Position numbers and translations under genes: made by a program
Notes under the pieces: model-generated
The model's input: the letters and a program-made list of their open reading frames with translations, nothing else
What the model was told of the DNA's origin: nothing
Database searches by the model: none
Shown: positions 43,668 through 47,893 of the stretch, piece by piece
How the letters are laid out: each line of letters begins with the position of its first letter
Numbering within the stretch: the stretch's first letter is position 1
Assembly: GCF_000682715.1 (NCBI RefSeq)
Contig: NZ_AWFH01000063.1
Coordinates: forward strand, 1 to 64,000
Direction: 5' to 3'
Source: Hyphomonas atlantica corrig.
Lineage (GTDB): Bacteria > Pseudomonadota > Alphaproteobacteria > Caulobacterales > Hyphomonadaceae
Length of the DNA: 64,000 nt

Positions 43668-43748
43668 CTATGCGCCGACAGGAGGCTGCTCCGGCCGGGC
43701 ACCACAGGATATAAACTTGTTGATCCCTCTGGTTTTCTCACTCGACAT
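43668..43748 (-). CDS. 26-codon small ORF with an extreme Shine-Dalgarno
   Basis: Starts MSSEKTRGINKF and ends EQPPVGA. Its ribosome-binding site GAAAGGAGGTGATTC is complementary over 13 bases to the 3' end of 16S rRNA. A CCTCCT inside the ORF (on the minus strand, around 43679-43686) could pair with AGGAGG and mask it, as in a thermosensor or autoregulated leader. Tandem hairpins follow. The SD and start lie in the 25-bp repeat that bounds the RT element, so the ORF has been cut from its original upstream DNA (now right of 47893). Whether a peptide is made is unknown; a structured small RNA is the alternative. Confidence 0.45.
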   Translation of the reverse strand: MSSEKTRGINKFISCGARPEQPPVGA

Positions 43749-43765
43749 GAATCACCTCCTTTCAA
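43741..43765. repeat. Left 25-bp direct repeat (attachment-site candidate, attL)
   Basis: Identical to 47869-47893. It begins CTCGACATGAATCACCTCC and continues TTTCAA. On the minus strand it contains the SD and ATG of the 26-codon ORF. Bases on either side differ between the copies, so the repeat is exactly 25 bp, as expected for a site-specific recombination core or a long target duplication. Confidence 0.8.
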
Positions 43766-43769
43766 AAAA

Positions 43770-43864
43770 AGTCATTGATTACAATGCGTTATCGGCGCAT
43801 ACTGTAATGGTTACTCACAAAAATTGTAAGCTTCGATTTAATTCCCCAATGTCATCAATGACTT
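43770..43864. repeat. Inverted repeat at the left end of the RT element
   Basis: AGTCATTGAT near 43770 is the exact reverse complement of ATCAATGACT near 43855. The 10-bp arms enclose about 75 bases that also contain ACAATGCGTT and TTACTCACAAAAATTGTAAG. It could be an RNA stem or a protein-binding site close to the attachment core. Confidence 0.5.
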
Positions 43865-43875
43865 AGGTAACGACC

Positions 43876-43903
43876 TTTCTGGGAAACCACTGGGAAACGA
43901 AAT
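43876..43903. repeat. Left GGGAAAC pair (arm-site-like)
   Basis: TTTCTGGGAAAC, four variable bases, then GGGAAACGAAAT. The same arrangement recurs at 47718-47745 in the same orientation, with only the four central bases different. It lies 110 bases inside the left 25-bp repeat. Confidence 0.65.
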
Positions 43904-44173
43904 CCACCGACAACACGTAAATTTAGGCACGATTTGCATCGCAGCTCAAATGATATTTGGGTGAAGTAAAGAAGTCATTGTTGCCTTGGTGCTGTTCGCA
44001 AGAATTAGCCGATTCAAGCGGTGTCTGACAGTCACGGGTGGCTGACGTTCTGATGCCAGAAAGACTCGAGGATTAGAAACTGATTCCCGTTTTCGGGATG
44101 CTCTGTTTTCCGGCTGGTTGCAAGTTTGGTGAGGCAGTCATAGAAATGACGCTTGTTTTAAGAGGGGTTACAT

Positions 44174-45430
44174 TTGGCGGGCCGAAACATTTTTTCCGAA
44201 AGGGCGCTGGCAAGTTTGATCCGATCAGGCGATTCGCAGAAATTTGGAATCGACCTAAAAGAGCACCGCGATAGCATTATTGCTGGCGCTTCAGCCGCCG
44301 CCGGGAGTGGTAGCGTAGATTTATCTCAGTTCTCGCTGGTCCAAATTCGTGGGAAATCCTGCGCTTACTACAACGACTACAATACCGTGCTTTTGCTCAG
44401 AGCGATCTCCAGGCATTTGCGCAACAGGCTTCGTGTCGTTACTCCCAATCGAAATAAGATAGTACGTGGAGTTGTGGAGACTCTTCTTGATGGGACTCCA
44501 ATGCATGCGACTAGACGTGACATCTCATCTTTCTACGAGACCATTCCAATATCTGCTATTCGAGATCGGTTGATCTATGACACGGCAAGTTCGGCATTAG
44601 TGCGGACCTATTTGAAGACATTTTTCGAAACTCATTGTCCCATGGAAAAAGATCACGGGGTGCCTAGGGGAATTGGTCTCAGCGCGCTGATTTCGGAACT
44701 GGCAATGCGTACTTTCGATCAAAGCGTTCGTGATTTTAGGGGGGTTTACAAGTATTATCGGTTTGCTGACGACATACTCGTGTTCTCCACTTGCGAGTCA
44801 TCAGAAGTTTCTGGCTTTTTACTCGATAACCTACCAACGCCAATGACCTTCAATCCAGAGAAATCGGACGAAGTGTGTTTTCCGGGGAAAAAGGAGGCAG
44901 ATTTAGGTGGGCGAAGTCTGGATTATCTGGGCTACGAGTTTACTGCGAAACAAGTGAATGGAAATCGCGATAGCCGCCACGTCCGAGTATCCATCTCGCA
45001 AAGGAAGCTCAAAAAAATTCAATCGCGCGTTATTTTGTCGTTCAAAGACTATGCTAGAACAGGTGATTGGGGGCTCTTAAAGGATCGCGTGAAGTATCTG
45101 TCTGCAAATTTCCGAGTGCAAAGACAGGGTGCCGAATTTGTTCGAAGCAGTCGGAACGTTTTCTCCGGCATATATTTCAACTACCCCTTATGCGGAGAAT
45201 ATCAATACAAATCATCAGTCATGAGATGTTCTGCCTATGACAGCAGGGAGTTGAAAGAACTGGATGGGTTTTATCACTCCATGCTGAGAAAGATATCTGG
45301 CGGGATCACTCCTTCGCAATTGCTTCAGATGAAGCGGCTGTCTTTCAACAAAGGATACGAACTTCGGATTCGAGTGCGATTTTACCCGAGGCGTATTAGT
45401 GAGATTAATCGAGGATGGCGGAATGCTTAG
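44174..45430 (+). CDS. Antiviral reverse transcriptase, Drt3a-like (UG3 group)
   Basis: 418-residue RT-fold protein. Motif A is RRDISSFYETIP (Asp about 116), motif B GVPRGIGLSALISELAMR (about 162-179), motif C FADD in YYRFADDILVF (about 197-200), then SLDYLGYEF as motif D. It lacks the X/thumb regions of retrons and group II introns and has no maturase, endonuclease or integrase domain. Pairing with a second, larger RT in an overlapping gene matches defence system DRT type 3 (Drt3a with Drt3b). In that system, as I recall, Drt3a copies an ACACAC template in an ncRNA. TTG start with AGAGGGG upstream. AT-richer than neighbours. Confidence 0.75.
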   Translation: MAGRNIFSERALASLIRSGDSQKFGIDLKEHRDSIIAGASAAAGSGSVDLSQFSLVQIRGKSCAYYNDYNTVLLLRAISRHLRNRLRVVTPNRNKIVRGVVETLLDGTPMHATRRDISSFYETIPISAIRDRLIYDTASSALVRTYLKTFFETHCPMEKDHGVPRGIGLSALISELAMRTFDQSVRDFRGVYKYYRFADDILVFSTCESSEVSGFLLDNLPTPMTFNPEKSDEVCFPGKKEADLGGRSLDYLGYEFTAKQVNGNRDSRHVRVSISQRKLKKIQSRVILSFKDYARTGDWGLLKDRVKYLSANFRVQRQGAEFVRSSRNVFSGIYFNYPLCGEYQYKSSVMRCSAYDSRELKELDGFYHSMLRKISGGITPSQLLQMKRLSFNKGYELRIRVRFYPRRISEINRGWRNA

Positions 45431-47354
45431 TCCGGGAAACAATCCCGTAGGTTGGAAGAGCCTACTTACAGAAACGTTGCCTTATGAGGTTCCTGTTATC
45501 TTTTCTAATGAGAATTTTTTCGCTTCACTCGCATCAGTAAAAATCGATAGCAAGGTGGAAGCGACCCTAAAAAAAATCCGGTTAAGGAACTCCTCCCATT
45601 CAATCCCGTACAATTACCGAATATCGAAAGGGAAGGGGAGTGCCACTACGCTAAGCATTATTCATCCGGTCCATCAAATGGAGATTGCTGAGTTTTACGA
45701 AAACTACAAGCAGTCGATGTTGGACTACTGTAATCGCAGTGAAATGTCGTTGCGCCACCCCGTGTCAGAAACCCAAATGTATGCCCAAATCGGTAATCAG
45801 ACCAAGGACACTCTGAAACTTGGAATTCCGCATGTGGGTTCAGACGATAGTCAAATTGAGCTGTCTCATCTCGCGTCCTACTTCACATACCGTAAATACA
45901 ACTTACTAGGGAAGTTCATCGAATCTGCTGAGTTCAGGCGCTTGGAGAAGCGTTATTCTTTGATGCGAAAGCTCGATGTCAGTCGGTGCTTTTTTAACAT
46001 CTATACCCACAGCATTACTTGGGCCGCCAAGGATAAGTCTTTCGCAAAAGAGCAGAAGGACACGTACTCGTTCGAAGCTCGTTTTGATAAGCTTATGCAG
46101 CGCACAAACTATAATGAGACCAACGGCATTGTCGTTGGTCCAGAGTGTTCGAGAATTTTTGCCGAGATCATTTTCCAAGATATAGACCGCCAAGTCGCAA
46201 ATCAGTTGGCTCCATTGGAGCACGAGCGAGACTATTCAATCAGGAGGTATGTGGACGACTATTTCGTTTTCGCTAGAGACCAGCCGATGCTGGACAAGAT
46301 CGCAAGAGTAATTGAACGGGAGCTGGAGAAGTACAAGTTATTCATCAATTCGAACAAGACAAAGACATCGTCTCGTCCATTCGTCTCCGATATCAGTTTA
46401 GCACGTAGCGAGTTGAAACAACTGATTGATTACATGCGTGACTGTGTTCAAGGAGTAATTTCCAGTACTGATGGGAGTGAGATAAAACGCGCAGCAGGCA
46501 AGCTTCGGCGCCGTGTCCTCGATATCAGACTTATTTGTAGTGCTCGTTCGGTTGAGTTCAGCTCATTGAGTGGTTGGCTTCTATCCGTGGTTCGTCGACA
46601 ATTGACTGACTTGTGTGAAGCCATTTCATCAAGTGCAGATGATGAGAAGAGAGACGCATTGTTGGAGATGGCGGCGTCGCTACTAGAAGTGGCATTCTAT
46701 ATTTGCGCTTTAGATGTGAGGGTGAGATCAACCTATAGCATATGCCAAATTGTGTCAGTCGTTCAGGGCCTCAATAACGACGGTGCGCGTGAAGACTATG
46801 ATCGATTGGCCCATTTGATGACTAGCGAATTAAATGATATAATCCGCTCACAAACATATGAAAATTCAGCAGGTGATGAAGATGTGGATGGCAATATTGA
46901 GCTCTACAATTTACTCATAACCGGTGCAGAATACCTGGGAGCAGACTTTTTGAAAACGGGTTATGCCGCCGACTACCTTGGAGAGTTGGCATCGGCAAAA
47001 CCCACTAGATACTTTTCTTATATCACATGTAAATTTTGCTTTCTCAAAGACAGTGCAATGTTCGCCAACGAACTCGCGGGTATGAATGCCGCAGTTCATG
47101 CTAAACTAGTCGACAGCAAATCATCCATAATGACAGATTCAGAACTCTATTTGTTGTTCTGTGATTATTTGAGTGCTCCCGATGTTTCCAAGAAGGACAA
47201 AATGGATTTAATCAATGAAATATTTGGCGGGTCCATTTCCAAAAATGACGCTGAGGAAGTCGGCGAACACGTTGGATTTGTTGATTGGAGAGGAGTGCGT
47301 ATAACGCACCTGCTGCGGAGAAAAACATTGAAGCCAGTCTACGCTTGGGCTTAG
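45423..47354 (+). CDS. Antiviral reverse transcriptase, Drt3b-like (UG8 group)
   Basis: 643-residue RT with motif A KLDVSRCFFNIYTHSITWA (Asp about 185), motif B NGIVVGPECSRIFAEI (about 234-249) and motif C YVDD in RRYVDDYFVFARD (about 276-279). An N-terminal segment with IIHPVHQMEIAEFYENYKQ precedes the RT core, and a helical C-terminal 300 residues is unlike retrons. Two-RT architecture, size and order fit Drt3b of DRT type 3. The ATG at 45423 overlaps the first RT gene by eight bases; a GTG at 45399 is possible. SNENFF near residue 30 has an acidic residue in the region where Drt3b is reported to use a protein side chain in place of a template. Confidence 0.72.
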   Translation: MLSPGNNPVGWKSLLTETLPYEVPVIFSNENFFASLASVKIDSKVEATLKKIRLRNSSHSIPYNYRISKGKGSATTLSIIHPVHQMEIAEFYENYKQSMLDYCNRSEMSLRHPVSETQMYAQIGNQTKDTLKLGIPHVGSDDSQIELSHLASYFTYRKYNLLGKFIESAEFRRLEKRYSLMRKLDVSRCFFNIYTHSITWAAKDKSFAKEQKDTYSFEARFDKLMQRTNYNETNGIVVGPECSRIFAEIIFQDIDRQVANQLAPLEHERDYSIRRYVDDYFVFARDQPMLDKIARVIERELEKYKLFINSNKTKTSSRPFVSDISLARSELKQLIDYMRDCVQGVISSTDGSEIKRAAGKLRRRVLDIRLICSARSVEFSSLSGWLLSVVRRQLTDLCEAISSSADDEKRDALLEMAASLLEVAFYICALDVRVRSTYSICQIVSVVQGLNNDGAREDYDRLAHLMTSELNDIIRSQTYENSAGDEDVDGNIELYNLLITGAEYLGADFLKTGYAADYLGELASAKPTRYFSYITCKFCFLKDSAMFANELAGMNAAVHAKLVDSKSSIMTDSELYLLFCDYLSAPDVSKKDKMDLINEIFGGSISKNDAEEVGEHVGFVDWRGVRITHLLRRKTLKPVYAWA

Positions 47355-47394
47355 TAGCTGGTGAGGCTGTCATCCTGAATGCACCAATTTGAGG

Positions 47395-47628
47395 TGGACG
47401 CAGGTTTGCCAAAATGCGGTTACCTATGGATTTTCTATAGGGGCTCAAGAACTATCGGACTTGTCTGGTGCGTTTGCGAGCACACACTTCTCAGTTCTTT
47501 GGCAGCCTCGCATTTGAGTATATCTAGTGCGTCCAGAAATTGGGATCCCGATTTACTTGCTTCCAATATTAACCTGTAAGGCTCTACTCCAATGTCGGCG
47601 TATAATTCGGTCACGTGGATTGTTTTTT
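47395..47628 (+). ncRNA. Candidate DRT3 non-coding RNA with ACACAC template loop
   Basis: CACACAC at 47481-47487 opens a 26-base loop closed by the 6-bp stem TGCGAG (47475-47480) / CTCGCA (47507-47512). A hairpin CCTAT/ATAGG precedes it and a T6 run at 47623-47628 could be the 3' end. This is the only ACACAC in the non-coding parts of the element. DRT type 3 loci carry an ncRNA whose ACACAC is, as I recall, the template for poly(GT) synthesis. The ends given are guesses. Confidence 0.4.
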
Positions 47629-47717
47629 AGCTAGAAAGGTCTTCACCTCACTGGCGTTAGAATCTGGCACCCCGGTGGCTCACTATGCCAGCAATGAAGC
47701 CCTCAAAGGTCTAAAAA

Positions 47718-47745
47718 TTTCTGGGAAACGAGGGGGAAACGAAAT
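47718..47745. repeat. Right GGGAAAC pair (arm-site-like)
   Basis: Same layout as 43876-43903: TTTCTGGGAAAC, four bases (GAGG instead of CACT), GGGAAACGAAAT. It ends 123 bases before the right 25-bp repeat. The sequence after it (CGGCAAATTTATAGGC) also resembles the corresponding left part (CGACAACACGTAAATTTAGGC). Confidence 0.65.
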
Positions 47746-47868
47746 TTCGTCGGCAAATTTATAGGCGAAATTTACAATCAAATTAAACGAAATAACTGTT
47801 AAAAAACAATCGTTTACGGGTGAGGTCAGGTGACCTGGCAGGATGGCGATGTAAGTCGGAATTTATTT

Positions 47869-47893
47869 CTCGACATGAATCACCTCCTTTCAA
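47869..47893. repeat. Right 25-bp direct repeat (attachment-site candidate, attR)
   Basis: Exact copy of 43741-43765. On the minus strand it again gives GAAAGGAGGTGATTC-ATG, but here the frame runs into the element and stops after 16 codons (MSRNKFRLTSPSCQVT). DNA to its right should be the original promoter side of the small ORF. Confidence 0.8.

Follow-up and report, generated by a model that had tools for sequence, protein, structure and literature searches.

A two-gene reverse transcriptase locus with a probable downstream RNA

The window analyzed here is a stretch of 64,000 nucleotides (nt) from Hyphomonas atlantica (contig NZ_AWFH01000063.1, positions 1 to 64,000 of the forward strand). 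It contains two overlapping reverse transcriptase (RT) genes, followed by a probable noncoding RNA (ncRNA), in an arrangement that matches type 3 of the defence-associated reverse transcriptases (DRTs), DRT3. The features of the locus are as follows.

44174–45430, + strand: drt3a (UG3, Class 2 RT), TTG start, 418 amino acids (aa), matched by PADLOC and NCBIfam
45423–47354, + strand: drt3b (UG8, Class 1 RT with a helical C-terminal domain), ATG start, 643 aa
47355–47515, + strand: probable DRT3 ncRNA, comprising a closing stem and a template, boundaries approximate
47481–47487, + strand: CACACAC, an (AC)3 run, putative template that Drt3a would copy into poly(dTdG)

Both open reading frames (ORFs) are intact and full length, and they overlap by 8 nt in the order drt3a–drt3b. 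The drt3b frame is already open from a GTG at 45399; we placed the start at the ATG at 45423 because this start is conserved and gives an overlap of exactly 8 nt. The drt3a/drt3b pairs of Phaeobacter, Novosphingobium and Acetobacter (L075–L077) are annotated with the identical overlap. Motif C reads YRFADD in Drt3a (F197, A198, D199, D200) and RRYVDD in Drt3b (YVDD at residues 276–279), leaving the xxDD active site intact in each protein. An initial annotation had described two overlapping genes with FADD and YVDD motifs, and had compared a small RT followed by one of about 640 residues with the DRT3 layout and with UG3 and UG8; these descriptions are borne out by the gene models and by the searches and trees below.

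The two proteins match the DRT3 models best, both in PADLOC (Drt3a, E=1.6e-93; Drt3b, E=2.6e-176) and in NCBIfam, where Drt3a scores 318.2 bits with NF041747 (equivalog cut-off 200) and Drt3b 597.1 bits with NF041748 (equivalog cut-off 350). These scores exclude a chance match. In the PDB, the closest sequences come from the solved DRT3 proteins, 9z6y and 26cz (Drt3a versus 9z6y_A, E=1.6e-28), and trees of about 100–110 homologues place Drt3a and Drt3b each among the DRT3 proteins. The weak cross-matches to TIGR04416 and to retron models that would suggest group II intron, retron or diversity-generating retroelement (DGR) enzymes instead are of the kind expected of any RT. TIGR04416 scores reach 52 and 33 bits (cut-off 300), while the Drt3a and Drt3b cut-offs are well exceeded, and Rfam at gathering score finds no intron RNA, retron or DGR family near the locus. 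We therefore reject such an identity, the probability of which is negligible. The initial annotation was right that the pair has no group II intron, DGR or retron affiliation, but its statement that partners are lacking does not hold, as the ncRNA and its template had been overlooked.

AlphaFold2 models of Drt3a and Drt3b (predicted local distance difference test scores 91 and 86) have their nearest solved folds in the Class 2 RT DRT9 and in the Class 1 RTs DRT6, DRT4, UG15 and AbiK, respectively. DRT3 structures are absent from the top matches in the Foldseek copy of the PDB (to 2026-04-08), and therefore the fold matches inform on RT class only; the modeled folds are as expected for DRT3, in which a Class 2 RT is described as paired with a Class 1 RT. 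The Class 1 proteins resemble Drt3b also in being protein-primed. Unlike the window locus, DRT9 and the AbiK/DRT4/DRT6/UG15 group are single-RT systems with other products (poly-dA, random single-stranded DNA).

EcoDRT3, the E. coli system, depends on an ncRNA whose gene follows drt3b and which carries an ACACAC template (PMC13174585). In the window, CACACAC starts 127 nt past the drt3b stop codon and is the sole (AC)3 run between 43700 and 48000. A run of this kind lies within 300 nt downstream of drt3b at 95 of 107 loci, as against 4 of 99 controls, for which we took the stretch 1 kb further on from the downstream region of the fetched drt3b loci. In the variant clade described below, (AC)3 or longer follows drt3b at every locus where the region is intact (18/18).

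The region just past the drt3b stop pairs with the region just past the template: GAGGCTG (47363–47369) and CAGCCTC (47503–47509) form a closing stem, which the predicted fold extends on both sides. Because single-sequence folding of the ncRNA region yields a z of only −1.35, we turned to arm complementarity across loci. The true 5′ and 3′ arms of 18 variant loci pair at a mean of −32 kcal/mol; exchanging arms between loci raises this to −20 (p=2e-11). The arms of the window ncRNA pair at −27.1 kcal/mol, beating 37 of 40 swapped partners. As the arm sequences differ between loci, it is the pairing itself that is conserved; in a MAFFT alignment of the ncRNAs, gaps were too many for pairs to be counted formally. 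Thus, the third DRT3 component is probably present as a putative downstream RNA with a 5′-ACACAC-3′ template. The drt3a leader and the 5′ end of the ncRNA also share a repeat (TGGTGAGGCA/TGTCAT), but this does not recur at other loci and was set aside as chance or local.

Drt3b gating residues and a subclade with an altered pocket

The central open question about DRT3 is how an alternating DNA sequence is encoded in the amino acids of Drt3b, and natural active-site variants are called for (PMC13314766). Using 26cz as the numbering yardstick, with the offset verified at seven published positions, we find that E22 of the window Drt3b corresponds to the dA gate E22 of EcoDRT3b, R244 to the dC gate R241, and the C-terminal Y640 to the priming residue Y666. 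D185, F190 and YVDD are also kept. The priming tyrosine is invariant in a nine-sequence alignment (A1) and nearly invariant in another (A3). R71 of EcoDRT3b, which stacks on the incoming adenine (PMC13174585), is not kept: its site is occupied by T75.

Compared with the EcoDRT3 references (PMC13174585; PDB 26cz and 9z6y/9z6z; Deng et al. 2026, as cited in PMC13314766), the window system shares the adjacent drt3a–drt3b order, the downstream ACACAC ncRNA, the E22/R241 gates, the C-terminal priming tyrosine and the RT motifs. It differs in its proteins being about 30% identical to those of E. coli, in the replacement of R71 by T75, in a Drt3a motif C of FADD rather than YVDD, and in the three residues that follow the priming tyrosine of Drt3b. 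Its setting differs too, with AddAB in the host instead of RecBCD, and with a 4.1-kb element without an integrase as the carrier.

We surveyed the pocket in 113 Drt3b sequences, taken as the best-scoring matches in collections of genomes, viruses and plasmids; the set leans toward the query and is no census. The R241 position has R throughout, the E22 position has E (98 sequences), D (12) or H (1), and the R71 position has R (93), T (13), N (5) or L (1). The 19 variant Drt3b sequences are monophyletic, with a Shimodaira–Hasegawa-like approximate likelihood ratio test (SH-aLRT) support of 100 and a single state change, on a tree built without the columns in question; their Drt3a partners likewise form one clade (SH-aLRT 100). 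When columns are called separating if their top residue is found in >85% of the other sequences and <15% of the clade, position 71 is the sole RT-domain column of Drt3b to be called, being R in 100% of the others and T, N or L in all 19. In Drt3a, the V of the motif C consensus [YF]VDD has become A or S in 16 of the 17 clade members with the motif aligned (L086 is gapped), and is kept in every non-clade homologue with the motif aligned. The equivalents of E22 and R241 are retained across the clade (19/19), save for one E-to-D replacement (L094), and many members have R or K at position 69, two residues before 71. R71, a contributory residue in EcoDRT3, is not family-defining, because it is replaced throughout this whole 19-member subclade.

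The profile libraries, the PDB sequences, the trees and the ncRNA template all speak for orthology with Drt3a/UG3 and Drt3b/UG8; as judged from its sequence, the locus is DRT3 by all features examined except the non-defining R71. It belongs to a separate DRT3 subclade, marked by a changed active site and apparently undescribed: the passages of the DRT3 literature that we consulted do not mention it. Other members are found in Acetobacter nitrogenifigens (L082), Novacetimonas hansenii (L083), Brevundimonas (L084) and on a Phaeobacter inhibens plasmid (L075, annotated as drt3a/drt3b in RefSeq). With these the window system shares the SH-aLRT 100 clade, T or N at position 71, A or S in Drt3a motif C, the ACACAC template, and a priming tyrosine followed by three residues; it differs in being at most 45–46% identical to them, and in having S at position 69 where most have R or K. 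DRT3 is not new to Alphaproteobacteria, and an alphaproteobacterial member does not widen its known range as the initial annotation had proposed, because RefSeq already has drt3a/drt3b in four alphaproteobacterial genera (Phaeobacter, Novosphingobium, Acetobacter and Zymomonas). Rather, the novelty lies in the clade-wide active-site signature and in the minimal shared-end element that carries the system. The subclade amounts to a natural experiment, with 19 systems that keep both gates and the ACACAC template while all lacking the third base-contacting residue, nearly all of them having also changed a neighboring residue of the partner's motif C.

Three single cases from the survey may be recorded here. 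Sphingomonas citri (L093), a long branch within the Drt3b clade, has L at position 71, a shifted priming tail (ASREY) and a Drt3a that keeps the V of motif C. Drt3b of Moraxella caprae (L151) has H at the dA gate, the sole case in the sample. Another genus of the host family has a DRT3 as well (G122; L036, 10351–13837); it falls in the canonical clade (R71, YVDD) and adjoins a relaxase-like gene and a DNA methylase/helicase region.

Predicted activity and alternative readings

It is very probable, in our view, that the window holds a complete DRT3 antiphage system (Drt3a, Drt3b and ncRNA) of a distinct subclade, predicted to be active, as the sole cargo of a 4.1-kb integrase-less site-specific element. 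Its products, priming, nuclease control and abortive outcome are taken over from the E. coli work (PMC13174585) and are put forward by analogy. Drt3a would bind the ncRNA transcribed downstream of drt3b and copy its ACACAC segment over and over into poly(dTdG), while Drt3b, primed from its C-terminal Y640 and choosing nucleotides through E22 (dA gate) and R244 (dC gate), would make poly(dCdA) without a nucleic-acid template. The two strands would anneal to duplex DNA, held down in uninfected cells by a host double-stranded DNA exonuclease; inhibition of that nuclease by a phage would let the duplex accumulate and arrest growth. As the gates, the priming tyrosine and the ncRNA template are all kept, poly(dTdG)/poly(dCdA) duplex is the most likely product of the window system. 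Retention of the ACACAC template and of both gates makes it most economical to suppose that the loss of R71 (T75) would be compensated locally, giving the same product.

The nuclease in this host would presumably be AddAB. The genome encodes an alphaproteobacterial AddA that passes its cut-off (1031 bits, cut-off 861), and no RecB in it passes (best score 71 bits, cut-off 696); for this reason AddAB would have to fill the role. In E. coli, DRT3 becomes toxic when RecBCD is missing, and Gam, an inhibitor of RecBCD, triggers it (PMC13174585). Since AddAB is present and RecBCD is not, the host bears on whether DRT3 can be guarded by nucleases beyond RecBCD.

Several points weigh against this picture. 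R71A of EcoDRT3b gives no detectable (CA)10 in cells, (CA)10 being detected with R71K (PMC13174585), and thus a natural T75 could mean weak or altered activity. The window has S at position 69, without the R or K found there in many clade members. The ends of the ncRNA are placed by inference, and the Gam/RecBCD trigger is known from E. coli only.

The main rival to the same product being made is a changed one: a DRT3 relative with different Drt3b gating, yielding a less strictly alternating product or some other homopolymer or heteropolymer, with the A or S of Drt3a as the matching partner change. That position 71 is the sole separating RT-domain column, that E. coli cells with the R71A mutant show no detectable product (PMC13174585), and that the motif C replacement occurs in 16 of 17 aligned Drt3a partners of the same systems all fit such a change. 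On the other hand, the E22 and R241 equivalents persist in all 19 systems but for the E-to-D case of L094, the (AC)3 run follows drt3b in all 18 intact regions, a changed Drt3b product could not pair with poly(dTdG), and R or K at position 69 could substitute for R71 in many members. A changed product therefore seems unlikely to us.

Less likely still is that the window holds a decaying, non-functional DRT3 copy on a stranded element. Such decay would account for a Drt3b with neither R71 nor the shifted R/K at 69, an element without an integrase, and a DRT3 found in only one genome of the genus. It is at odds with two full-length ORFs in which all catalytic, gating and priming residues are present and with an intact template and closing stem. 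Moreover, the sequence is only 45% identical to that of its nearest known relative, yet no frame has been broken.

A small element without an integrase

The initial annotation placed the genes on a minimal 4-kb element; this can be confirmed and sharpened to 43766–47893 by two direct repeats and an empty site, which it had not noticed, and which together with shared-end elements in relatives define the following features.

43741–43765, + strand: left attachment-site copy CTCGACATGAATCACCTCCTTTCAA, direct repeat
43766–47893: integrated element, 4128 bp including one attachment core
43766–43983: shared left end, common with the elements of genomes G013 and G004, holding an 18-bp inverted repeat
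43876–43903, + strand: left sub-terminal pair TCTGGGAAACCACTGGGAAACGAAAT, putative recombinase arm-type sites
47718–47745, + strand: right sub-terminal pair TCTGGGAAACGAGGGGGAAACGAAAT, putative recombinase arm-type sites
47869–47893, + strand: right attachment-site copy, identical 25 bp; the joined flanks equal the uninterrupted site of genome G037

The two CTCGACATGAATCACCTCCTTTCAA copies lie 4128 bp apart, and between about 43.5 and 48.0 kb the G+C content is 44–50%, compared with about 60% around it. With one interval removed, the sequence around the junction is identical, at every base, to the empty site that G037 and further genomes of the genus have; the insertion site is empty in many genomes of the genus, and only one of them carries DRT3. 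The element has no ORF of integrase size besides drt3a and drt3b and no other long ORF, and 90 kb separate it from the nearest PF00589 gene on the contig.

Two relatives have elements at the same insertion point. The G013 element (3199 bp) is 89% identical to the window element over the left 218 bp, and the G004 element (1997 bp) 74% identical over about 172 bp of the left end, while the cargo of both is unrelated to that of the window. A tandem pair of the form TGGGAAACnnn(T/G)GGGAAACGAAA lies near each end, in the same orientation, in the window and G013 elements; in the G004 element both ends carry an identically altered motif (GCGGAAA...). Elsewhere, about 100 relatives and 384 genomes of the class gave only two chance-like matches to the tandem motif, each with 2 mismatches. 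The pairs resemble the arm-type sites of a tyrosine integrase, and we infer that the element is moved in trans by a recombinase of this type. Searches with the left-end sequence, the arm motif and the site turned up no helper integrase, the arms having been looked for in about 100 relatives, 384 genomes of the class and viral contigs.

Because no helper was found, the vehicle could instead be a deletion remnant of a once-complete integrative element or satellite, like the cis-mobilizable elements (CIMEs), and not a trans-mobile lineage; we consider this possible, if somewhat improbable. The lack of an integrase inside the element and of a helper with the same arms in the collections searched would be natural in a remnant. 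However, elements of 4128, 3199 and 1997 bp share a left end, an insertion point and paired terminal motifs with unrelated cargo, the G004 motif is altered alike at both ends, and independent deletions to the same minimal form would be needed three times. Like CIMEs, other non-autonomous integrative elements and phage satellites, the window element has direct-repeat attachment copies, an empty site and integrase-less cargo. It is much smaller than phage satellites, which are 7–20 kb and have an integrase (PMC13376191), and, unlike CIMEs and satellites, its family exchanges cargo at one site while the left end stays conserved.

The 4.1-kb shared-end element points to a very small vehicle for defence genes. 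A broader proposal, which we offer tentatively and with considerable doubt, is that a DRT3 branch of Alpha- and Betaproteobacteria has rewired its protein template, losing R71 with a coordinated change in the partner's motif C and using other side chains to select nucleotides, possibly with an effect on product or rate, and that here it travels on trans-mobilized, integrase-less, cargo-swapping elements of 2–4 kb.

The cargo of the two sister elements has no Pfam, PADLOC or NCBIfam match, and by association its genes are candidates for new defence genes. In G004 (L034, 4864–6189) it includes an orphan protein of 431–441 aa, in which a HEPN-like C-terminal stretch is an impression only; the G013 cargo (L033, 4656–6949) is unrelated, and small putative membrane proteins also occur among the sister cargo. 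The 18-bp inverted repeat (43769–43786 and 43847–43864, with a 60-nt loop) lies within the stretch common to all three elements.

The insertion target (43668–43748, minus strand) is the Shine–Dalgarno and start region of a 26-codon ORF (MSSEK...EQP..) beside kdsA, conserved across the genus and family with GAAAGGAGGTGAT(C/T)-ATG. Rfam matches of the target to ryfA and BjrC1505 were sub-threshold only and were not credited. After insertion, the left copy keeps the 26-codon ORF but is cut off from the native upstream region of that ORF; the right copy runs on into the end of the element as a 16-aa ORF (47826–47876).

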